Assembly: GCA_021784835.1 (NCBI GenBank)
Contig: JAJYHI010000124.1
Span: 25,661-89,660 of the forward strand
Length of the DNA stretch: 64,000 bases
Source of the DNA: a bacterium
GTDB taxonomy: Bacteria > SZUA-79 > Acidulodesulfobacterales > Acidulodesulfobacteraceae
Reading direction: 5' to 3'
The position numbers and the translations under genes are program-made. Below are positions 38,440-49,727 of this stretch, in pieces (positions within the stretch are counted from its first letter, which is position 1; each line of letters opens with the position of its first letter). The notes beneath the pieces were generated by a model. The model saw only the letters and a list, made by a program, of their open reading frames with translations. It did no database searches and was not told where the DNA came from.

Positions 38440-41400
38440 ATGCCGAAAATAAACGTTAATTCTATAAAATTTAAAATTTATTTCCTCTTTATCCTGTCGA
38501 ATATTATTATTTTTTCGGTAGGAATATTCATAGTCCTTCACTATATTGCATTATACAGCCGAAAATCTTTAAAAGAACAGTTAAAATCAAATTTAATGTC
38601 CGGTACTATGGCTTTTTTAAGCGAAAGAAATTATATGCTTGAAAAAGCTAACGATATCATAGCCCATAATTTTAAAAGCGGGTTCATCAGAAAGACGGTC
38701 GATTATAAAAGAATATCCGACATAATCTTAGTAAAAATAGAAAGAGGGAAAATAGATTACATTAAAAAATTTGAATCAAAGAAATATCCCGAAAAAGTTA
38801 AAATATCGAAGAAATATTACGGAAGATTGGAAAGAATAATATCTACAAAAAACCGCCACATATTTGCTGGCTTCGGAAGAGATAAGCCCGACAAACTCAT
38901 AAATATTACGGTGATTTATCGCCTGCTGCATAAAAATAACGGTTATTTGATTATTCTAAATAAACACGTAACCAGCGATTATTTAAAAAATATCCGAATA
39001 AAAAAACATATACCTTCAAATCTCGGTATTTATTACGGTTTCAAAAGGTCTGCTATTTCTTTTGTTAAAAATAATAAATATGAAGGTCTGGGGCAGAATC
39101 TGACAAAAAAACAGATTCCGGTTTTAGAGAAGGGCATAAGCGTTTATGCATCGCTAAACGTGAACGGCACGCATTTTTATGTATATAACGTACCGATAAA
39201 AAATTACGACGGTAAAATTATAGGGGTATTTGGCGCCGGCATAAAACAATATACATGGTTCAGGCATCTTTCTAAACTTTATGCGTCTATAATTTTTTTT
39301 ATAGCGTTATATATTTTAACTATACTGATTTTTATTTTAATAAACAAAAGATTTTCAGAGCCTTTCTATGACCTTTTGAAAAGCATAAGAAATATAGATC
39401 CTAACAATCCGCAGGAATTAAATATTGCCGACAAATATAAAAACAAGGAAAGCGAATTTTACGAATTCGCTAAAGCTATAAACGTTTTAAATAACGCCAT
39501 AGTTCTAAAGCAGAAAGAAAACAGCCTTATAATGTCCAGCATAAACGATTTTTCCAAAACCGTTTCCGAAAAGGACGATTTTAATTCGCTTACGTTTAAG
39601 CTTATTGACCTGATAGTCGAAAGAATGGGATACGGTTACGCTTGGTTCGGAGTTTTAGACGAAGACAAAAAAGAAGTAAAAATAATAAGCGTTTATAATA
39701 ACGATTTTAATTACGCGAAAAATTTAATTCTTCAATACGGCGAAAATCCGGACAATCATGAATATTTGCAAAATTTAACGGCAAAAGCTATAAAATTGCA
39801 AAATTACGCCGTAATAAACGACGTAGAAAATGATACGACTATACCCGCCCGTTACAAAACTAAACTTTTAGAATTTAAATTTTTATCGGCAGGCTCGTTT
39901 CCTTTAATAATGCATGGCCGCGTTATCGGCATAATGGCAATTTATTCAAGCAAGAAAGGCGCTTTCGACGATGTTAAAGCCGGCGCAATTTTTGATCTTG
40001 CAAATTATGCCGCATACCTTATAACTTACCTGAAAAATTTGAAAAGACAATCGCTTTTGTCTGAAATGGCAGAGAGGTTATTGTTTTCAATGACAAGAAG
40101 ACAAGAAATAACCGATGAAAACAAAACGAATGTTAACGGAAATTCTTTTTATTCCAGCAAATCAGGCAGTCGAAGCAAACAGGAATTAAGCAGAGAAGAG
40201 TTTATGCAAAAATTTTTAAACGATATAGAAGATAATATGCAGACCGATTTTGTGGAATTTATCGTTTTCGATGTCGTCAAAAGCGAAATTATCGAAGGCA
40301 TATTTTCTAATAAGTGGGTTTTAAATTTAGGCAAAAGCACTATTGAGCCGCTTCCTACCGAGTTCGTTAGAAAACGTATAATTGAAAACAGGCTTGAAGC
40401 GTATAATTATCAAAAAGATGATTCTGCGACGGAATATTTTAAAAATAAAGGCGTAGAAGATATAATCCTTTATTCCTTCGAGGGAACGGAAAACAGAAGA
40501 TATATGGCTATAACCGGCGTAATTAAAAGAAGCGCATCGTTTTACGACGAAGATTTATATTTTTTTAAAAACGGCATAAACTTTTTAGCGGAATATTTTG
40601 GAATTAATACGCTTTTTGAAAAGCTGGATTCTTCGTTAGAACTTTTAGAAAACAGGGAAAACTTAATCAATAAGATGGCGGAGTTCGGTATAGTCTCTAT
40701 TAATTTAACCGATAAAACGGTTAATCTTTACAACGATTATTTTGCCCTGGCGTTTAATATAGACAAGTTTTCGTCGCCGTTGGAATTGAATGAATTTTAC
40801 GAAAAAATAAAGGATGCATTTGAAGATAAAAATTTTGCGAAAACTATATTTGAAACATATATAAACAACAAATACACCGCTACTCTGGAAAGCATAGAGA
40901 TGAATCTTAAAAACGGCATTATACTGAGTATGAAGTCTAATCTGTTTACGACTAAAGATAAAAGCGTTATAAGATTTCTTGTGTTTGGAGACGTAACTAA
41001 TCTAAAAAATAATATAAAAAGACTAAATCTTCTAAACAATCTGTCATATAAACTATCCATGGTTTTTACCCTTGAATATGCCATAAAAACATTTGCGGAA
41101 GGTCTGTGTTCTATAAAAAAACAGGGCGGCGGCATGGTGGATTCCCTGCATATTAACATATTCGACGCCGTTAATAAAAAAACCGTCACATCTTTGATTT
41201 ACGACAGAAAAAAAGGTTCGCCGCCGGAGACGGACAATTCCGAAAATGCGGATAAAATTATACTGAAAACGGCAAATATCGATTACGAAGATTATCTGTC
41301 GTATTGCAAACTTTTAAAAAACGAAAAAAATAACGATCTGGACGACACCGTAAATAGTTGCGAATTTAAAGGTACTGCCGGCAGTTATATGTGCTTTCCG

Positions 41401-42093
41401 CTAAAAATAAGCGATGAATTAGCAGGCACTATTTCTATAGATTCCGAAGATAAGCATTTCTTTACCCAAGAAATTATCGACTTGATAAAAGAGATAATAA
41501 ACATAGCATCTCCGGTTTTTGCAAAGCTGATATTAATAGAAACAAATAGAGAGCTGGCGCTTACTGATTCTTTAACGGGCATACATAACAGAAGATTTAT
41601 GTACGAGTTCGTAAAAAGAGAAATAGTAAGGGCATCTAGAAATTCGACGAGTCTTTCTTTTGCCATATTGGATGTAGATAAATTTAAAAATATAAACGAT
41701 AATTACGGACACAATATAGGCGACATAATGCTGGTCGAATTTACCAATGACTTAAAAAGCATTTTACTCAGAAAACAGGATATAATAACAAGATACGGCG
41801 GCGATGAATTCGTCGTAGTTTTACCGGATACAAGTAAAGAAAAAGCTATGAATTTAATGGAAAAATTAAGGGTTTATATAGAAAATAAAATTTATACTCC
41901 AAAAGACAATTTAAATTTAAATATTACCATATCCGTCGGAGTTTCCGGCATAGAACAGTTTTTTCACGATAAGAGCGGGGAAATTAAAGAAATAAATTAC
42001 GACCCGGACGAAATATTAAACGGCTTGCTGAAAATTGCAGACGATAATTTATACAGGGCAAAAGAATTAGGCAGAAATAAAGTAGTGGGATAA
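38440..42093 (+). CDS. Membrane sensor diguanylate cyclase (Cache-like, GAF repeats, GGDEF)
   Basis: A 1217-residue signalling protein. An N-terminal membrane helix (about 12-34) and a second at about 280-300 enclose a roughly 245-residue extracytoplasmic sensor region of Cache-like size. Cytoplasmic GAF-like regions follow at about 370-540, about 590-750 and about 870-1055. The C-terminal GGDEF domain makes cyclic di-GMP: LTGIHNRRFM opens it, and the active-site RYGGDEF has GGDEF at 1120-1124. An inhibitory RxxD site (RKQD) precedes it by five residues, so product feedback is likely. The gene stands alone. Input ligand unknown. Confidence 0.88.
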   Translation: MPKINVNSIKFKIYFLFILSNIIIFSVGIFIVLHYIALYSRKSLKEQLKSNLMSGTMAFLSERNYMLEKANDIIAHNFKSGFIRKTVDYKRISDIILVKIERGKIDYIKKFESKKYPEKVKISKKYYGRLERIISTKNRHIFAGFGRDKPDKLINITVIYRLLHKNNGYLIILNKHVTSDYLKNIRIKKHIPSNLGIYYGFKRSAISFVKNNKYEGLGQNLTKKQIPVLEKGISVYASLNVNGTHFYVYNVPIKNYDGKIIGVFGAGIKQYTWFRHLSKLYASIIFFIALYILTILIFILINKRFSEPFYDLLKSIRNIDPNNPQELNIADKYKNKESEFYEFAKAINVLNNAIVLKQKENSLIMSSINDFSKTVSEKDDFNSLTFKLIDLIVERMGYGYAWFGVLDEDKKEVKIISVYNNDFNYAKNLILQYGENPDNHEYLQNLTAKAIKLQNYAVINDVENDTTIPARYKTKLLEFKFLSAGSFPLIMHGRVIGIMAIYSSKKGAFDDVKAGAIFDLANYAAYLITYLKNLKRQSLLSEMAERLLFSMTRRQEITDENKTNVNGNSFYSSKSGSRSKQELSREEFMQKFLNDIEDNMQTDFVEFIVFDVVKSEIIEGIFSNKWVLNLGKSTIEPLPTEFVRKRIIENRLEAYNYQKDDSATEYFKNKGVEDIILYSFEGTENRRYMAITGVIKRSASFYDEDLYFFKNGINFLAEYFGINTLFEKLDSSLELLENRENLINKMAEFGIVSINLTDKTVNLYNDYFALAFNIDKFSSPLELNEFYEKIKDAFEDKNFAKTIFETYINNKYTATLESIEMNLKNGIILSMKSNLFTTKDKSVIRFLVFGDVTNLKNNIKRLNLLNNLSYKLSMVFTLEYAIKTFAEGLCSIKKQGGGMVDSLHINIFDAVNKKTVTSLIYDRKKGSPPETDNSENADKIILKTANIDYEDYLSYCKLLKNEKNNDLDDTVNSCEFKGTAGSYMCFPLKISDELAGTISIDSEDKHFFTQEIIDLIKEIINIASPVFAKLILIETNRELALTDSLTGIHNRRFMYEFVKREIVRASRNSTSLSFAILDVDKFKNINDNYGHNIGDIMLVEFTNDLKSILLRKQDIITRYGGDEFVVVLPDTSKEKAMNLMEKLRVYIENKIYTPKDNLNLNITISVGVSGIEQFFHDKSGEIKEINYDPDEILNGLLKIADDNLYRAKELGRNKVVG

Positions 42094-42138: not shown

Positions 42139-43173
42139 ATGGATAAAAACTTAGAAATTATAGAAACTATAAATAAAATATCCGAAGAAGCAAAAATATC
42201 TTTGGATTCCGCCAAAGAGTTAAACGAATTGGACGGCATCTTTAAGGCTTTTATGGGAAAAAAAGGCAAGCTGACGGAGATTTTACATAATATCGGTTCA
42301 TATTCTATAGAAGAAAAAAAAATTATAGGAAAAAAATCGAATGAAGTCAAAAACGAGATAGAAGCAATTTATAATACAAAAAAAATAGAACTTTTTTCAG
42401 GAGAAAATAAAAAATTTTTCGACGAATATAAAATAGACCTTACAATACCCGGAAAACAGATAGAAAGATTTCATAAACACCCGATAACTGCTGTACTGGA
42501 AGAAGCGGCCGATTTTTTTACGTCTATGGGTTTCCAAATAGTCGAAGGCCCTGAAATAGAAACTACTTATTATAATTTCGATGCGTTAAATATTCCGGCG
42601 GATCATCCCGCAAGAGACGTATGGGATACTTTTTATCTGCTGAACGGTTTGGTGCCGAGAACGCACACGTCCAGCGTTCAAGCTCGAACCCTCGAAAAAA
42701 AAGAACTGCCCTTAAGGATAATTGCGCCGGGCAGATGTTACAGATATGAAGCCGTGGATGCAACGCACCTTTTTATGTTTAATCAAATGGAAGGCCTTTT
42801 CGTAGATAAAAACGTTAAACTTTCTGATTTAAAAGGAATATTGGAAGAGACCGTAAAACACCTTCTCGGCGCAAGAAAAACACGTTTCAGGCCTGCTTTT
42901 TATCCTTTTGTTGAACCTGGTTTAGACCTTGATATAGAATGCGTATTCTGCGGCGGAAGAGGTTGCGGAGTATGTAAAAATACCGGCTGGATAGAAGTGA
43001 TTCCATGCGGAATGGTGCATCCTAACGTTTTTAAATATGCCGGCATAGATCCTCAGGAGTATAAAGGTTTTGCTTTTGGAATGGGATTCGACAGAATAGT
43101 TATGCTTAAATATAATATTAACGACTTGAGGCTTCTATATCAGGGAAGCCTTGATATCTTAAACCAGTTTTAG
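42139..43173 (+). CDS. pheS: Phenylalanyl-tRNA synthetase alpha subunit
   Basis: The 344-residue catalytic subunit of the alpha2-beta2 class II synthetase. A coiled-coil N-terminus with LDGIFKAFMGKKGKLT is followed by the class II motifs: HPITAVLEEAADFFTSMGFQIVEGPEIE, then RTHTSSVQAR, FHQMEG-type FNQMEGLFVD and the glycine-rich motif 3 GFAFGMGFDRIVML. A cysteine cluster CVFCGGRGCGVCKNTGW sits in the C-terminal region, where family members have a similar Cys set. It ends 4 bases into the opposing helicase gene. Its usual partner pheT is not next to it but 4 kb downstream, separated by three unrelated genes. Confidence 0.95.
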   Translation: MDKNLEIIETINKISEEAKISLDSAKELNELDGIFKAFMGKKGKLTEILHNIGSYSIEEKKIIGKKSNEVKNEIEAIYNTKKIELFSGENKKFFDEYKIDLTIPGKQIERFHKHPITAVLEEAADFFTSMGFQIVEGPEIETTYYNFDALNIPADHPARDVWDTFYLLNGLVPRTHTSSVQARTLEKKELPLRIIAPGRCYRYEAVDATHLFMFNQMEGLFVDKNVKLSDLKGILEETVKHLLGARKTRFRPAFYPFVEPGLDLDIECVFCGGRGCGVCKNTGWIEVIPCGMVHPNVFKYAGIDPQEYKGFAFGMGFDRIVMLKYNINDLRLLYQGSLDILNQF

Positions 43174-45212
43174 CGTTTTAAAAAATCCGAAATTTCTCCG
43201 GAATACGTTATATAAAGTTTTTCTTTAGCTCTTGAAGCCGCAACGTAAAAAAGCCTTACCTCGTCGTCGATTAATATATCGTTTATTTTAAACTGATAAC
43301 CTGTTTTAAAAAAATTTAAGAAAGGGTTAATTTTAAAATAGGACGGTCTATCGCCGCAATTTAAATAATCTTTTTTTAAGATGGATATAAATACGACGTC
43401 ATACTCCAAACCTTTGCCGGCATGTATGGTCGAAACCTGGCAAAAATCTGCTAAATGAGGTATAGCCAGAAATTTAGATTTTTCCTTTTTTGTTCTTACT
43501 AAAACCGCAGTTTTCTTTCCGGTTTTAAAATAATCCGCCGCTTTTTTTGTTATAAAATTTTCTTCTTCGCTTTTATTTTTAAAACCGATAATATCGACTG
43601 CCGTGTCAGGTATTATATTATTTTTTGCAATTAATTTTTTTGGATACCTGAATTGTATGTTATTCAATATTGAATTGCAAAATTCTACTATAGTCCGGTT
43701 TGACCTGTAATTATTCTGAAAAACGAATACTTTGCCTGAAGGGAAAAACAGGTCGAACGACAGAATATTAAATAAATCTCCTCCGTTAAATCCGTATATC
43801 GACTGGTCGTCGTCCCCGGCATACATAATTTTACCCTTGCACGCGTCTATTTTTTTTATTAAATAATCGCTCAAAAAATCTAAATCCTGATATTCATCGA
43901 CTAATATATATTTAAATCTTGACGATATTTCGCTTGTTATAGAATCGTTTTGAAAAAGTTTTGCTATATTTAAAATAATTTCATCGTATGTTATAGATAA
44001 TTCATTAGCACATTTATTATTCGACGAGGACGTTTCAATTTTTTCATCGGAAACCGAAGGGGCGGATTTATATCCAAGTTCGCTATAAAATTCTTTTATT
44101 ATCGAATAGAAAAAACTGTGGTAAGTTGAAATATTTAAAATCTTATTGTTTATAAAGGCGCCATATTCTTTAATATTTAATTTTTTTGCTATCCTGTTTT
44201 TTATCTCGGTTACGGCGTTATTTGTGAAAGTCAGAACAAGTATCGAATCTGCGGAAAAAAAATTTAATAAATATAAGAACTTATCGACTATTACTTTAGT
44301 CTTACCAGCTCCTGCGCCTGCTATTATAAGAAGTGCCGTATTTTTTTCTTTTATCGATATTTTTTGAATTTTGCTTAGTTCCGAATTTTGCATCCTTTTT
44401 TCGGTAGCCCCTCCGATTCTTTTTAAAACTGTTTTTTCTTTAAAATTTTTTGCGGTATTTAAAAATATTTTAATTTTATCGAACAGCTCTTTTTGGTAAA
44501 AGTGCATGTCTAATAAATTTGTATTTAGATTAATTTCATTTTGAGAAATAGATTCCGCCGTTTGTTCGGTCGCCTGTATATTTTTGTGCGGCGGCGTTAT
44601 ATTAATACTCACGGCAAATTTTTCGGAATTTAGAAAAAATAAGTTTGTATTATTAATTTCAGGATTAAAACCTATAGTTTTCATTTTACGGATAAACAAG
44701 TCCATAGATTCCGTGTATCCGCCGTGTTTTAACGAAGCTAAAATTCTTGTTTTTAAAAGCATTTTTAAACGCGATTTGTAAATATCAGTTATTAAATTTT
44801 CGTAATAATTTTTTTCGATTAGCATGTCGTCATATAAACTTGTTAAATCGTTAGCGCCGTTAAAAGTCGTTTCCGTCGTTATGCCTAAAATAATGTCGTT
44901 ATTTAGCGCAAAGTCGCAGACGGCGTTCAATAAGACGGCGTCCGAAAGCGAATTCAATGTTATACCGCTTAAAAAAACCGCTTGTGCCGATAAAACGTTT
45001 TTAATATTTTTAAAAGGAAAACTTAAAGGGGATTCAATTTCACCGTCTATATTAAAATTTTTTTTTAAATCTTCGAAAGTAAAAAATTTGCATTTTATGT
45101 TTAAATCTTCGATTTTTTTAATAAAATGACCGCATTCATTTACTGAAGATAGCAGTATTCCTATAGAGTTAGATATATTAAAATTGAAATTTTTAAGATA
45201 AAGATTTATCAT
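43170..45212 (-). CDS. SF1 (UvrD-like) helicase with a 290-residue novel N-terminal region
   Basis: A 680-residue protein. Residues 298-680 form a UvrD/Rep-type helicase core: Walker A GAGAGKTK (299-306), Ia TFTNNAVTEIKNR, motif II VDEYQD (438-443), motif III YAGDDDQSIYGFNGGD, motif IV NYRSN, motif V STIHAGKGLEYDVV and motif VI LFYVAASRAKEKLYI. The gap between IV and V is short, so a full 2B domain seems absent. Residues 1-290 are not a standard part of UvrD. A segment at 83-112 (GITLNSLSDAVLLNAVCDFA...) has a faint likeness to Rossmann-like flavoprotein folds. The gene is divergent from a PRTase/DprA pair and lies between pheS and pheT. Confidence 0.8.
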   Translation of the reverse strand: MINLYLKNFNFNISNSIGILLSSVNECGHFIKKIEDLNIKCKFFTFEDLKKNFNIDGEIESPLSFPFKNIKNVLSAQAVFLSGITLNSLSDAVLLNAVCDFALNNDIILGITTETTFNGANDLTSLYDDMLIEKNYYENLITDIYKSRLKMLLKTRILASLKHGGYTESMDLFIRKMKTIGFNPEINNTNLFFLNSEKFAVSINITPPHKNIQATEQTAESISQNEINLNTNLLDMHFYQKELFDKIKIFLNTAKNFKEKTVLKRIGGATEKRMQNSELSKIQKISIKEKNTALLIIAGAGAGKTKVIVDKFLYLLNFFSADSILVLTFTNNAVTEIKNRIAKKLNIKEYGAFINNKILNISTYHSFFYSIIKEFYSELGYKSAPSVSDEKIETSSSNNKCANELSITYDEIILNIAKLFQNDSITSEISSRFKYILVDEYQDLDFLSDYLIKKIDACKGKIMYAGDDDQSIYGFNGGDLFNILSFDLFFPSGKVFVFQNNYRSNRTIVEFCNSILNNIQFRYPKKLIAKNNIIPDTAVDIIGFKNKSEEENFITKKAADYFKTGKKTAVLVRTKKEKSKFLAIPHLADFCQVSTIHAGKGLEYDVVFISILKKDYLNCGDRPSYFKINPFLNFFKTGYQFKINDILIDDEVRLFYVAASRAKEKLYITYSGEISDFLKR

Positions 45213-45288
45213 ATTAAATTGTCGATTTATTAACGATTTAATTTTATAAAATCAATGGCAAAGTTTATTATTAATAATAATATTGATA

Positions 45289-45894
45289 ATGCTTCAAAAT
45301 AATATGAATATAAAAATAGGCGGCAACGGAGAATATTTTTATTTAGATTATTATATTCCGGAAAATAAAAAATATCTCTTCGATAAGCGCAGGTTACCTT
45401 CAAGCGTAAAATATTCCGATTTAATTTTAAAATATAAAAAGGGCAATTATAAGGCCGTAGCTTTTTTTATAAAAATATTAAACAATATTATATATAATTA
45501 TTTTTATTTTTACGATTTAATACTTCCGGTTCCGCCGAGCAATTCATATTTGGACGTTTATCCTAATTCTCAGGTATGCATGTATCTTTCGGCGCTGGGA
45601 ACTATTTCTACTTACGAAAAGGCTTTAGTATGCACTAAAGGTCACAAACCAGGGCATATCGAGAATAATATAGAATTTAAAAAAAAGGACTTAAATAATA
45701 TATCGTTTGAGTATAAGTATAATTATAAATCAAAAAAAATAATAATTTTCGACGACATTATAACTACGGGAACTACTTTTAAACTTATAAAAAACGCGTT
45801 ATTAAAAGAGGGGGCAAGCACTGTAACAGGAATATTTCTCGGTAAAACGCCCAAGGAAGAAGATATTATAAATTTTGCGGGCGGGGATATTTAA
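45289..45894 (+). CDS. ComF-like phosphoribosyltransferase-fold protein, no zinc finger
   Basis: A protein of about 200 residues with the type I phosphoribosyltransferase fold. The PRPP loop IIIFDDIITTGTTF is near 153-166 (numbered from TTG 45283), preceded by LPVPPSNS and by HKPGHIENNIEF, which parallels the ComF Q/R..N..F segment. The N-terminal Cys4 zinc ribbon of ComF is absent. Its substrate is unknown; proteins of this type are linked to DNA uptake. Candidate starts are TTG 45283, ATG 45289 and ATG 45304, none with a clear ribosome site. The stop overlaps dprA by one base, so the two are co-translated. Confidence 0.7.
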   Translation: MLQNNMNIKIGGNGEYFYLDYYIPENKKYLFDKRRLPSSVKYSDLILKYKKGNYKAVAFFIKILNNIIYNYFYFYDLILPVPPSNSYLDVYPNSQVCMYLSALGTISTYEKALVCTKGHKPGHIENNIEFKKKDLNNISFEYKYNYKSKKIIIFDDIITTGTTFKLIKNALLKEGASTVTGIFLGKTPKEEDIINFAGGDI

Positions 45895-46886
45895 TGGACG
45901 ATATTATATGCACTTTAGCTCTTAAAAAAATCAAAGGCCTGCAGAATAGGCATATAATTTTTTTAATTAATGCATTCGGCAGTCCCTGCGAAATTTTTAA
46001 CGCCGATAAGTCCGATTTTATTAAAACAGGTTTAAAAATAGATTACGTTAAGATATTAATAAATCAAAGAGTTATAAAGACGGCTTTTTTCGATGCCATA
46101 AAAGAGATTGACGAGATTTCTAAAAACGGCGTTAAAATAATAACTTTTAATTCTTCTTTATATCCGGCAAATTTACGCAAAATTAAAAATAAGCCTTTAA
46201 TTCTATATTATAAAGGGACATTAAAAGAGGACTTAAAAATAGCGGCAGCAGTCGTGGGGCAGAGAAAACCGCCGGAATATGCGGTTAAGTTGACGGAGGA
46301 TATAACCTCGGAACTATGTTCTTCAGGTTATGCTATAATAAGCGGACTTGCCTTAGGGATAGATTCGACTGCCCATAGGACTGCATTAAAAAACAACGGA
46401 TATACTATAGCCTTTCTTGGTTCAGGACTTCTTTCGCCGGTATATCCCTCTGAGAACAGGGATTTGTATAATGAAATAATATTTAACGGAGGTGCGCTGG
46501 TTTCGGAACTTTCGCCGCACGAACCTATATCTTCCAAAAATTTAGTGGCAAGGGACAGACTGCAGAGCGGGTCTTCGCTCGGAACTTTTGCGTTATCTTC
46601 GCCTTTAAAAAGCGGAACTATGAAAACTTGTGGTTTTTCTATTAAACAAAAACGACCGGTTTTTATTCCGGAATACAACTTAAATTTAATGAATTCTTAC
46701 GACAATGAAGGGTTGAAATCCCTTTACGGACAAGTCGGGGTTTTCGGAATAAAGTTGCGTGGAGATTTTATTCCGGATTTAGGTGCGTCTTTAGAAGAAA
46801 TGCATGACGTCCATAATAAACTTTACGCGGAAAGGTTTGCCGAAGACGACCGCCTGGTACAGCCGGGTCTGTTTGACATTATATAG
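45894..46886 (+). CDS. Atypical DprA-like Rossmann protein
   Basis: A 330-residue member of the DprA/Smf group that loads RecA on single-stranded DNA in transformation. The N-terminal helical part (1-95) is classic, and the Rossmann core shows VGQRKPPEYA (121-130), SGLALGIDSTAH (150-161), LGSGLLSPVYPSENR and SELSPHEP. It departs from standard DprA where FpxRNRiIagLs is expected (RDRLQSGSS at 220-228), where a conserved vvEA strand should be (TFALSS), and at the usual VPG (IPEY). No C-terminal winged helix is obvious, although the tail may hold a small domain. It may be a specialised paralogue. Preceded by the PRTase and followed by a palindrome array. Confidence 0.75.
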   Translation: MDDIICTLALKKIKGLQNRHIIFLINAFGSPCEIFNADKSDFIKTGLKIDYVKILINQRVIKTAFFDAIKEIDEISKNGVKIITFNSSLYPANLRKIKNKPLILYYKGTLKEDLKIAAAVVGQRKPPEYAVKLTEDITSELCSSGYAIISGLALGIDSTAHRTALKNNGYTIAFLGSGLLSPVYPSENRDLYNEIIFNGGALVSELSPHEPISSKNLVARDRLQSGSSLGTFALSSPLKSGTMKTCGFSIKQKRPVFIPEYNLNLMNSYDNEGLKSLYGQVGVFGIKLRGDFIPDLGASLEEMHDVHNKLYAERFAEDDRLVQPGLFDII

Positions 46887-46888
46887 AT

Positions 46889-46917
46889 ACGGTGCCAGAA
46901 TTCAATTCTGGCACCGT
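46889..46917. repeat. Family A palindrome, copy 4 (tandem unit 1)
   Basis: Perfect palindrome, arms ACGGTGCCAGAATT and AATTCTGGCACCGT around a central C, followed by AACAAATTGGAAA. It begins right after the dprA-like stop and is the first of three tandem units spaced 38-39 bases centre to centre. Confidence 0.85.
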
Positions 46918-46930
46918 AACAAATTGGAAA

Positions 46931-46955
46931 GGGACAGAATTCAATTCTGGCACCG
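46931..46955. repeat. Family A palindrome, copy 5 (tandem unit 2, chimeric arms)
   Basis: The core GAATTCAATTC is kept, but the left arm is GGGACAG (as in copy 3) and the right arm CTGGCACC (as in copies 2 and 4), so the arms no longer match. Its right arm can instead pair with the left arm of the next unit. CACAAATTGGAAG separates it from unit 3. Confidence 0.8.
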
Positions 46956-46968
46956 TCACAAATTGGAA

Positions 46969-46993
46969 GTGCCAGAATTCAATTCCGTATCCG
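46969..46993. repeat. Family A palindrome, copy 6 (tandem unit 3, chimeric arms)
   Basis: Left arm AGTGCCAGAATT, right arm AATTCCGTATCCGT: the halves come from two different arm types and do not pair beyond the core. The right arm implies a further arm variant (ACGGATACGG) elsewhere in the genome. Confidence 0.75.
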
Positions 46994-47082
46994 TAATAAA
47001 ACGGAAAAGATAAAAGAAACTTTAATCCTGCAATAGAGCGGCAAAAATCTCTTGAATATGTTATAATGACTATAAAATATCT

Positions 47083-47175
47083 ATGAAAAAGGTGTCAGAT
47101 TTTATTTTACGCGTACTAAAATAAACAATTAAAGATAAAAAATTTTGCGTAAAATTAATCTGACACCTTTTTCAT
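47083..47175. repeat. Family B hairpin, copy 2 (upstream of pheT)
   Basis: ATGAAAAAGGTGTCAGATT at the left pairs with its counterpart ending ACCTTTTTCAT at 47175. The inner stem is TTTTACGC/GCGTAAAA, whereas the other copies have TTTTCCGC/GCGGAAAA, a paired change on both arms. It ends 22 bases before the pheT start codon and the ribosome site follows directly. Confidence 0.85.
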
Positions 47176-47197
47176 AAAATAATCGGAGGAATTAAAA

Positions 47198-49630
47198 TTG
47201 AAAGTAAGCTTGAACTGGCTTAGAGAATTTGTTTATTTTAAAACGGAGCCCGAAAAAGTAGCCTCTCTTTTAAACGGCAGAACTATGGAAGTAGAAAAAA
47301 TATTTCCTTATTATTCGCAAAAAAAGTCGTTTCAAAATATCGTACTCGGTGAAATAAAAAGTATTGCGCCGCATCCTTCCAACGATAAGTTCGGCATAGC
47401 CGAAGTTTACGCAGGAGAAACCTTAGGAGTTAAAAGGATAGTGTTTACCAAAGAGGGACTAAACGTAAAAGTTGGAGACAAACCTCTTATAGCTACAAAA
47501 GGCACCGTATTCGACCACGGATTAAAAATTAGGGATAAGGCTATATTCGGCGTGGTTTCCGAAGCCGCTTTCTGTTCTGAAAAAGATTTGGGACTCCAGT
47601 TAAATATAGATTCGATAGCAGAATTTCCTTTTTTAAAAACAGGTATGTCTGCATTCGATATTTTTGAACTTGACGATACGGTTTTAGAATTCGATCTTGA
47701 GCCAAACAGACCGGATCTTTTTGGAATTATGGGATTTGCGTATGAGTTAGCGGCAATATTAGATAAAAAGATACTTTTACCTGAAATATACGAGGGCGTT
47801 AATATAAACGCCGGCGAAAAATATGTTTCCGATAGAAATGAATTAAGCGTTAATATAGCCGACGAAGAAATAGCGCCGTCTTATATAGCGGTAAAAATAT
47901 CTGGTTTAAAAATAAAAGAATCGGATTTGCATATTAAAAATAAGCTTATGAAAAGCGGCATAAGACCGATTAATAATATAGTCGATTTAACTAATATCGT
48001 AATGATGGAAACTTCACAGCCGCTGCATGCATTCGACGCTTCAAAACTTGACGGAAACGCAATTAACGTGAGGCTTGCGTTAAAAGGCGAAACCTCCGTT
48101 ACTTTAGACGGAAAAGAAAGAAAATTATCGGATGAAGATATAGTCATAGCCGATAAAAATAAAATTATCGCTATAGCTGGAATAATGGGTTCTGCAAACA
48201 GCGAAATAGGCGACGATACTGCAGATATTATCGTAGAATCGGCTAATTTCAATATGTCAAGAATAAGAAAGACCTCAAGGACGCTTTCTTTAAGGACGGA
48301 TGCTTCGACGCGCTTCGAAAAAGGGATAAGTCCCGCTTTAAGCATATATGCTATTAAACGTTTTCTGCAACTTCTTCGCAAATATGAGGGCGATATCAAA
48401 GTCAAATGCTATGCTTATGATATAAAGGAAGATAAAACCTCTAAAATTTATGAAATAGACCTTAGCGTCCTGTCGGAATTTTCTGGTGATTCGGCGGTAA
48501 ATAAAAAAGCTCATACCGTTTTGTCTAACCTAGGTTATCATGTCGAACCTTCTGCCGAAGAAAATAATGTTCTTAAGGTTTCCCCGCCCTATTTCAGGAT
48601 GGATATCGGCGAAACCGTAAATATTTACGAAGATATCTTAAGAATATACGGTTACGATAATATAAAGTCGTCTATGCCTTTAGGCATACTTGCTCCTCCG
48701 TTAAAAAACGCAAATTTCGAAACATACAGGCTTTATAGAAATTTATTAAGATATGCCGGATTTACCGAGATAATTTCGCCGTCTCTTACCGGCGAAAAAG
48801 AAATAAATATATCGGTTGCGAATTCTTCCATAGGCAGAAATTCGGTTTTAGAGCTTAAAAATTATATTTCCGCAGATTATGCTTTTTTCAGGATAAATCT
48901 TATACCTGATATTTTAAGGTCGGTTCAGCAAAATTCCAGAAAATATAAAAATATTAAGATTTTTGAAATAGGAAAAGCTTATATAGGAGAAAAGACCGAC
49001 GGTATGCCGGTTAACGAAAAAAATGTTTTATGCGGATGCGTCTGCACCGGTATTAAGAGTTCAAGCCGCGACACAGAATTTTATACCGGAAAAGGCATCG
49101 TCGAATTTTTGCTTAAAGAATCCGGAATAAAAAAATTTTCGTTCGATAAAACACAGGATGCAAGTTTTTATAACGAAAATGCATCGTTGGAAATTACCGC
49201 CGGCAAAGCTAAAGTAGGAATTTTCGGCGAAATTAAGAAAGAAATATTAGACGAATTTAAAATAGAAAGCAAGGTTTTTGCATTCGAGTTTGATTTAGAC
49301 CATATTAAAGAATATATCTCGAATAAAAAAACTTTCACGCCGCCGAACAGATATCCGGAGATTGAACAGGATATTTCTATAGTATGCGATAAAAACATAG
49401 AGTATGCTTCTATAGAAAAATTAATTAAAGGATATTCGGCATTAATTAAAAACGTCAGGCTTGAAGATATTTATACGGGCAAGCAGATAGACGAAGGCAA
49501 AATATCTTTTCTTATCAGATACGACGCTATTGCCGACGATAGAACGCTTACTATGGAGGAGGTCAATGAATTAAGGGACGGCTTGATTAAAGAACTTAAT
49601 AACCGTTTCGGTATAACTTTAAGAAGGTAA
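47198..49630 (+). CDS. pheT: Phenylalanyl-tRNA synthetase beta subunit
   Basis: The 810-residue tRNA-binding and editing subunit partner of PheS. It opens MKVSLNWLREFV, followed by an EMAP/OB-type tRNA-binding domain (IVLGEIKSIAPHPSNDKFGIAEV), the B3/B4 editing region (PNRPDLFGIMGFAYELA, NNIVDLTNIVMMETSQPLHAFD), B5, the catalytic-like core (RTDASTRFEKGI) and a C-terminal anticodon-binding FDX-ACB fold ending in NELRDGLIKELNNRFGITLRR. The start is TTG at 47198 with GGAGGA upstream. Separated from pheS by a helicase/PRTase/DprA module and by palindromic repeats. Confidence 0.95.
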   Translation: MKVSLNWLREFVYFKTEPEKVASLLNGRTMEVEKIFPYYSQKKSFQNIVLGEIKSIAPHPSNDKFGIAEVYAGETLGVKRIVFTKEGLNVKVGDKPLIATKGTVFDHGLKIRDKAIFGVVSEAAFCSEKDLGLQLNIDSIAEFPFLKTGMSAFDIFELDDTVLEFDLEPNRPDLFGIMGFAYELAAILDKKILLPEIYEGVNINAGEKYVSDRNELSVNIADEEIAPSYIAVKISGLKIKESDLHIKNKLMKSGIRPINNIVDLTNIVMMETSQPLHAFDASKLDGNAINVRLALKGETSVTLDGKERKLSDEDIVIADKNKIIAIAGIMGSANSEIGDDTADIIVESANFNMSRIRKTSRTLSLRTDASTRFEKGISPALSIYAIKRFLQLLRKYEGDIKVKCYAYDIKEDKTSKIYEIDLSVLSEFSGDSAVNKKAHTVLSNLGYHVEPSAEENNVLKVSPPYFRMDIGETVNIYEDILRIYGYDNIKSSMPLGILAPPLKNANFETYRLYRNLLRYAGFTEIISPSLTGEKEINISVANSSIGRNSVLELKNYISADYAFFRINLIPDILRSVQQNSRKYKNIKIFEIGKAYIGEKTDGMPVNEKNVLCGCVCTGIKSSSRDTEFYTGKGIVEFLLKESGIKKFSFDKTQDASFYNENASLEITAGKAKVGIFGEIKKEILDEFKIESKVFAFEFDLDHIKEYISNKKTFTPPNRYPEIEQDISIVCDKNIEYASIEKLIKGYSALIKNVRLEDIYTGKQIDEGKISFLIRYDAIADDRTLTMEEVNELRDGLIKELNNRFGITLRR

Positions 49631-49639
49631 AAAAACAAA

Positions 49640-49727
49640 GAAAAAGGTGTCAGATTAATTTTCCGCAATGAACTTTATGTGTTAATTGACTTCTTAAAAG
49701 CGGAAAATAAAATCTGACACCTTTTTC
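49640..49727. repeat. Family B hairpin, copy 3 (inverted orientation)
   Basis: Left arm GAAAAAGGTGTCAGATTAA and right arm ending AATCTGACACCTTTTTC. Its left arm and loop match the reverse complement of copy 1, so this copy is inverted relative to the others. It lies 10 bases after the pheT stop and could end that transcript. Confidence 0.85.

Follow-up and report, generated by a model that had tools for sequence, protein, structure and literature searches.

Protection of E. coli against T7 and lambda by a PRTase (phosphoribosyltransferase)-DprA system has been reported, as has antitoxin action of DprA homologues in related systems (PMC9122126). In ShosTA, the PRTase and pyrophosphatase ShosT is reported to perturb purine pools, with ShosA described as a DNA-binding protein (PMC12593503), and ShosTA is listed among the systems activated by phage single-stranded DNA-binding protein (PMC10732053). 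In RqlHI/PsyrTA, a helicase, a PRTase, and a DprA-like protein form one set, in which the genotoxic PRTase domain of the RecQ-like RqlH is restrained by RqlI (PMC4670107). The same protein superfamilies are found in the ComFC-DprA pair of natural transformation, to which Bacillus adds the ComFA helicase. Here we analyzed a 64,000-nucleotide stretch (the window) of contig JAJYHI010000124.1, from a bacterium of the Acidulodesulfobacteraceae, in which a PRTase-DprA gene pair and a divergently transcribed helicase gene lie between pheS and pheT. We put it at an even chance that this module is an anciently acquired and vertically inherited ShosTA-like PRTase-DprA pair of the toxin-antitoxin class which, with its divergent superfamily 1A (SF1A) helicase, forms a core Acidulodesulfobacterium locus supplying the sole DprA. 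Relative to known ShosTA-like pairs the module is unusual in being fixed lineage-wide inside pheST, in standing in for a canonical DprA, and in having an SF1A helicase partner. No account of this locus was found in the literature searched, in which split pheS/pheT was not itself a search topic.

The conservation of the module was assessed in 30 genomes from one family and six genera of the phylum, centered on G001, the nearest to the window among the genomes compared (36% of sampled words shared). DprA was present in 29 of these; the remaining genome, G015, is 65% complete, and pheT was also not found there in a search run without a positive control. Of the 29 loci fetched, 26 include everything from pheS up to the start of pheT or beyond, and three (L054, L056, and L057) are cut by contig ends. 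As in ShosTA, the PRTase and DprA-like genes are adjacent and on the same strand, and they lie between pheS and pheT in all 26 spanning loci, joined by the helicase in 25. The three genes thus occur together at one site rather than being scattered independently. In G019 the PRTase gene starts 19 bases after pheS, and the genome has only generic UvrD-type matches. In G009 (L054) the PRTase/helicase side is missing at the contig end, again with only generic helicase matches elsewhere in the genome. Spacing within the module is tight. In 28 loci the gap between the PRTase and DprA genes ranges from -32 to +75 bases, with an overlap in 19 and no more than 75 bases between them in the remaining nine. 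Between the script-chosen starts of the helicase and the PRTase there are no more than 80 bases in 22 of 27 relatives.

For DprA, PRTase, and helicase alike, protein distances track those of pheT (r = 0.976, 0.968, and 0.974, respectively). Against four near relatives, dN/dS was 0.09-0.15 for DprA, 0.10-0.12 for pheT, 0.19-0.36 for the PRTase, and 0.21-0.32 for the helicase, so the module is under purifying selection. The module is ancient and fixed at pheS/pheT and did not arrive recently, since six genera share the site and divergence is like that of pheT. Its entry, if there was one, can only be ancient, before the split of the six genera. Because no relative with pheS directly beside pheT was found among the phylum loci examined, an insertion at pheST itself is something that we can only infer. 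The sequence-only reading had the module entering at the pheST junction; as a recent event this fails, and it survives only as an ancient event of this kind. Its proviso that pheS and pheT might be split by other content throughout the clade is half right: they are split throughout, but always by the same content.

Each lineage genome has one DprA above the PF02481 family cut-off, because the second matches, in G002, G005, G008, G014, G021, and G023, are all weak (E 3e-4 to 8e-4) and below that cut-off. A second match in G012 covers only the C-terminus and lies on another contig, the main copy being truncated where its contig ends. The one strong ComF-like match to TIGR00201 was the module PRTase in 14 of 15 genomes tested; G018 had one further weak match (E 1.4e-4), and G009 had none. 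No second dprA stands above the family cut-off.

The DprA-like protein carries R[DN]RLQ in place of the canonical RNRI(I/V) motif in all 29 lineage loci and in all 33 lineage proteins among the 120 of 621 database matches that were listed. The other 87 listed proteins comprise 61 of the RxRxQ kind, 24 canonical, and two with neither motif. The departure of this protein from the RNR-type motif, seen in the sequence-only reading, is therefore real, and it is shared with ShosA: RNRIQ or RDRIQ occurs in two of three ShosA-type proteins from phages, and the solved ShosA is also RxRxQ. The best PDB matches were the solved ShosA and a near-identical DprA entry (E about 1e-25), with pneumococcal DprA behind (7e-23). 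On TIGR00732 the window protein scores 163.8 bits, below the curated cut-off of 191.15, as compared with 261-282 bits for three canonical DprAs, 167-184 for the three phage ShosA-type proteins, and 153-196 for four database RxRxQ proteins. The definition of ShosA-type used here (RxRxQ plus a score below the TIGR00732 cut-off) is our own, and one RxRxQ protein, P0058 (195.7 bits), exceeds the cut-off.

A first quick DprA tree of 75 rows showed long branches meeting. In a more careful tree of 43 hand-picked rows (nine lineage, 16 canonical, and 18 RxRxQ), the canonical proteins form one side of a branch (support 100/99), and the lineage proteins fall outside it with the RxRxQ proteins. The nearest RxRxQ row to the lineage is the viral L164, with support of 92/78 that is not firm. 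Left out of this tree were phage L117 and L120, two PsyrTA-like rows, the canonical-motif database rows, and part of the RxRxQ rows. When 386 genomes were searched with the RxRxQ alignment, 349 matched at E <= 1e-40; among the 30 best loci fetched, lower-ranked matches being uninspected, there was no chromosomal carrier outside the lineage, and the six non-lineage loci all had canonical RNR[ILV]I. In three other bacteria (L126, L128, and L129, from genomes G059, G070, and G065), the sole DprA above the cut-off is short or low-scoring and has no adjoining PRTase.

The window PRTase open reading frame encodes 203 residues and matches PRTase models of Pfam and NCBIfam weakly. A start at ATG 45289 rather than 45283 is more likely because the identical database protein has 201 residues. 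A relative with 83% identity comes under the name Candidatus Acidulodesulfobacterium sp., which makes this acid-mine lineage the most likely source of the window. The zinc ribbon of ComF is absent, as had been noticed from the sequence: CxxC was found in none of 28 lineage PRTases and none of 19 ShosT-type PRTases (first 90 residues), and all 20 ComFs have at least two. The RGFNQ-like motif occurs in 15 of 20 ComFs, in none of the 19 ShosT-type proteins, and in none of 10 lineage rows. Conversely, a PxPxS...D pattern is found in all 10 lineage rows, in six of 19 ShosT-type proteins, and in no ComF. The PRPP-loop pattern of the active site is intact in 27 of 28 lineage PRTases. The predicted structure (mean pLDDT 78.6) had ShosT (8zvc) as its best fold match, with E 9.2e-7 and a TM-score by query of 0.56.

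Relatives of the pair occur in viruses. The RxRxQ alignment matched 89 viral stretches, of which the best 80 were taken, several being near-copies of one another. A same-strand PRTase adjoins 20 of 25 RxRxQ DprAs by hidden Markov model (HMM) and 12 of 25 by motif. Viral DprAs carrying neither motif have such a neighbor in 49 of 52 cases by HMM and in 21 of 52 by motif, and viral canonical DprAs in one of three and none of three. The HMM was seeded with 19 ShosT-type PRTases, most from the same viral loci, and with lineage PRTases, so its counts are partly circular. Applied to canonical chromosomal dprA loci with ~1.2 kb of flank, the same HMM found an adjoining PRTase in none of 30. A third kind of DprA-like protein, with RNRLMAL and ~257 residues, occurs in many near-copies in viral contigs L208-L215, L219, L221-L223, L226, L227, L231, and L241, and a PRTase adjoins it in 19 of 19 rows of its motif class. 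Two viral contigs carry an RxRxQ DprA-like protein of ~500 residues with no recognized PRTase neighbor (L174:3764-5278 and L175:3785-5278).

The arrangement of the locus is given in Table 1. The layout read from the sequence, with a divergent helicase and a PRTase-DprA pair between pheS and pheT, is borne out by the open reading frames and by Pfam, which matched UvrD-helicase, DNA_processg_A, PheS, and PheT; the PRTase domain was detected but below cut-off. The PRTase and DprA genes overlap by exactly one base in the window, as had been described, and the 3' ends of pheS and the helicase gene overlap by four bases.

Table 1. Features of the pheS-pheT interval and its flanks in the window
Feature	Position	Strand	Remarks
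pheS, left flank	42139..43173	+	Pfam tRNA-synt_2d, E 1.3e-95
Helicase, compact SF1A (UvrD/PcrA-type), 680 aa, divergent from PRTase	43170..45212	-	Pfam UvrD-helicase, E 4.7e-43
Helicase residues 1-280, N-terminal region	44373..45212	-	Without known relatives outside the lineage
Short intergenic stretch between divergent helicase and PRTase	45213..45282		
PRTase, ComF/ShosT-class	45283..45894	+	Zinc ribbon absent, PRPP loop intact; probable start 45289
DprA-like protein, RxRxQ kind	45894..46886	+	RDRLQSGSS, SGTMKT; no winged-helix match
Dispersed palindromic/inverted repeats, outside the module	46888..47176		
pheT, right flank	47198..49630	+	Pfam B3_4, E 4.1e-61

An alignment of 26 lineage sequences shows that the SF1 motifs of the helicase are conserved. 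The match of its core to the UvrD N-terminal model is broken into pieces that leave out the middle of the model (positions 2-108 and 179-268 in G001), which gives the enzyme a compact SF1A look. Residues 1-280, called unfamiliar in the sequence-only reading, deserve the description: used as a query they returned 26 proteins at E <= 1e-3, every one itself a UvrD-type helicase, and none of these is named from another lineage, most carrying no name. The predicted model is poor (mean pLDDT 57.9, predicted TM-score 0.33); VIA rows span mainly residues 288-680 and Foldseek rows are helicases, and with this model the comparison gave no fold for residues 1-280. Separate UvrD-type genes are present in 13 of 13 lineage genomes searched, and the module-type helicase was not found in any of the 80 viral loci. 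In the sister genus g2 (L061, L066, L068, L070, and L072-L074) the module helicases are longer, 749-772 residues, and carry extra sequence inserted into the second half of their core. The helicase core resembles those of PcrA, UvrD, Rep, and the Gabija protein GajB, and GajB models dominate its PADLOC matches. Unlike in Gabija, however, the neighbors of the helicase are pheS and the PRTase, with no adjacent GajA-like gene (judged by position only, the genome not having been searched for GajA). The module differs likewise from RqlHI/PsyrTA, where the helicase is of the RecQ family and fused to the PRTase; here it is UvrD-type, separate, and on the opposite strand.

Several points weigh against kinship with ShosTA. 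The lineage PRTase has no HAD domain and, as a 203-residue protein with only weak PRTase matches, is far from the 478 residues of phage ShosT (annotated HAD/PRTase) or the 432 of the PDB ShosT. Since this domain is absent, the lineage pair is not ShosTA proper, and the chemistry of its PRTase should be that of a PRTase only. The sequence match to ShosT is marginal (E 0.08), and ShosT leads the second fold match, H. pylori ComF (E 1.0e-6), by so little that the two are in effect level. In the PRTase tree of 49 rows, for which 21 ShosT-type loci were tried and 19 gave rows (L120 and L117 were dropped for want of a match or motif), the support of 69/67 is not firm. One of the three phage ShosA-type proteins (L120) lacks RxRxQ and groups with canonical DprAs in the quick tree. 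The PADLOC ShosA profile gives three canonical DprAs 222-241 bits as compared with 205 for the window protein, and PADLOC labels were rejected as proof of ShosA identity on this account. Finally, defense systems are expected to be distributed patchily, whereas this pair is fixed throughout the phylum. Gene order is variable among ShosTA systems, and the lineage pair sits fixed in the chromosome beside its divergent helicase. Of the suggestion that the module is a conflict (defense) system, kinship to ShosTA-type PRTase-DprA pairs is supported and a recent arrival is not.

In a second explanation the locus is a housekeeping dprA/comF without a toxin that serves competence-independent recombinational repair: DprA would load RecA, the PRTase would be a ComFC-like single-stranded DNA (ssDNA) partner minus its zinc finger, and the helicase would make ssDNA. 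We regard this as a possible but minority account. It suits a fixed locus with the sole DprA, as constrained as pheT, and the only strong ComF-like match, and approximately unbiased tests do not reject grouping of the lineage with canonical proteins (p = 0.324 for DprA and 0.339 for the PRTase with ComF). A ComFC-DprA interaction is moreover reported in two species, and the zinc finger is described as dispensable for the ssDNA steps (PMC9005727). However, RxRxQ replaces RNRI(I/V) and RGFNQ is missing, phage relatives that share these features have a PRTase as partner, and canonical dprA had no PRTase beside it in the control loci.

Because other bacteria use DprA and ComF-like proteins in competence (PMC9005727), the module could be a relic of a natural-transformation system. 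We disfavor this as improbable. ComEC, which every naturally transformable bacterium is described as having and needing (PMC9005727), was detected in none of the 30 phylum genomes (TIGR00360) and in none of 13 lineage genomes (PF03772), each control being positive in 10 of 14 named genomes, and the module is under purifying selection; the search did not extend to type IV pili or other competence genes. The DNA-uptake role offered by the sequence-only reading is thus unsupported, and a working competence locus is not supported as far as is visible. The DprA is indeed the only one in the genome, but it is not canonical and ComEC does not accompany it. A recently inserted mobile defense island with the repeats as its borders would fit the phage-borne relatives of the pair and the repeats adjoining the module, but is highly improbable given the site shared by six genera, the pheT-like divergence, the genome-wide occurrence of the repeats, and a gap between dprA and pheT that in 14 of the 28 measured loci amounts to only 18-33 bases (a spacing of 1345 bases in L062 is a split-match artefact, pheT being actually ~40 bases away).

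For the ShosTA-like pair, we propose by analogy with the described systems that the closely coupled DprA-like protein would bind ssDNA or replication intermediates and hold a toxic PRTase in check as its antitoxin. Phage replication or DNA damage would be the trigger, altering the state of DprA and releasing the PRTase, which would act on the PRPP (phosphoribosyl pyrophosphate)/nucleotide pool and thereby arrest the cell or stop the phage. Recombinational repair may be a further role of the DprA-like protein; the helicase would make or clear ssDNA. The pair is fixed and probably domesticated, and we think that its DprA also carries a core function because it is as constrained as pheT and only one is present. 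More tentatively, the lineage may have swapped its canonical DprA for a domesticated phage-type toxin-antitoxin pair, locked between pheS and pheT, plus a lineage-specific SF1A helicase, as a permanent ssDNA-triggered guard of the genome without competence. This would be an independent assembly of helicase, PRTase, and DprA beside ComFA/ComFC/DprA and RqlH/RqlI. A lineage without detectable ComEC keeps an antitoxin-like DprA as its only one and couples it to a PRTase at a position that does not vary. The locus makes it testable whether a core locus for genome maintenance can arise from a defense toxin-antitoxin pair, and whether the combination of helicase, PRTase, and DprA recurs as a functional unit.

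The palindromic repeats pointed out on the pheT side are present but are not part of the module, because they are dispersed genome-wide. Elements of ~95 bases with inverted 20-base arms and a AAAGGTGTCAGATT core flank pheT (47082-47176 and ~49640-49724) and recur at ~10441 in the window. Their 14-base core occurs 122 times in G001, 149 times in G006, 78 times in G017, and 14 times in G020; they are REP- or MITE-like (repetitive extragenic palindromic or miniature inverted-repeat transposable) elements spread over the lineage genomes. A second palindromic repeat, TGCCAGAATTCAATTC, has three tandem copies 3' of dprA (46888-47006) and one more at ~11500. On the other side of the module, a large protein with a C-terminus that looks like GGDEF by eye is encoded directly 5' of pheS (38440-42093) and adjoins pheS in only part of the nearest relatives.

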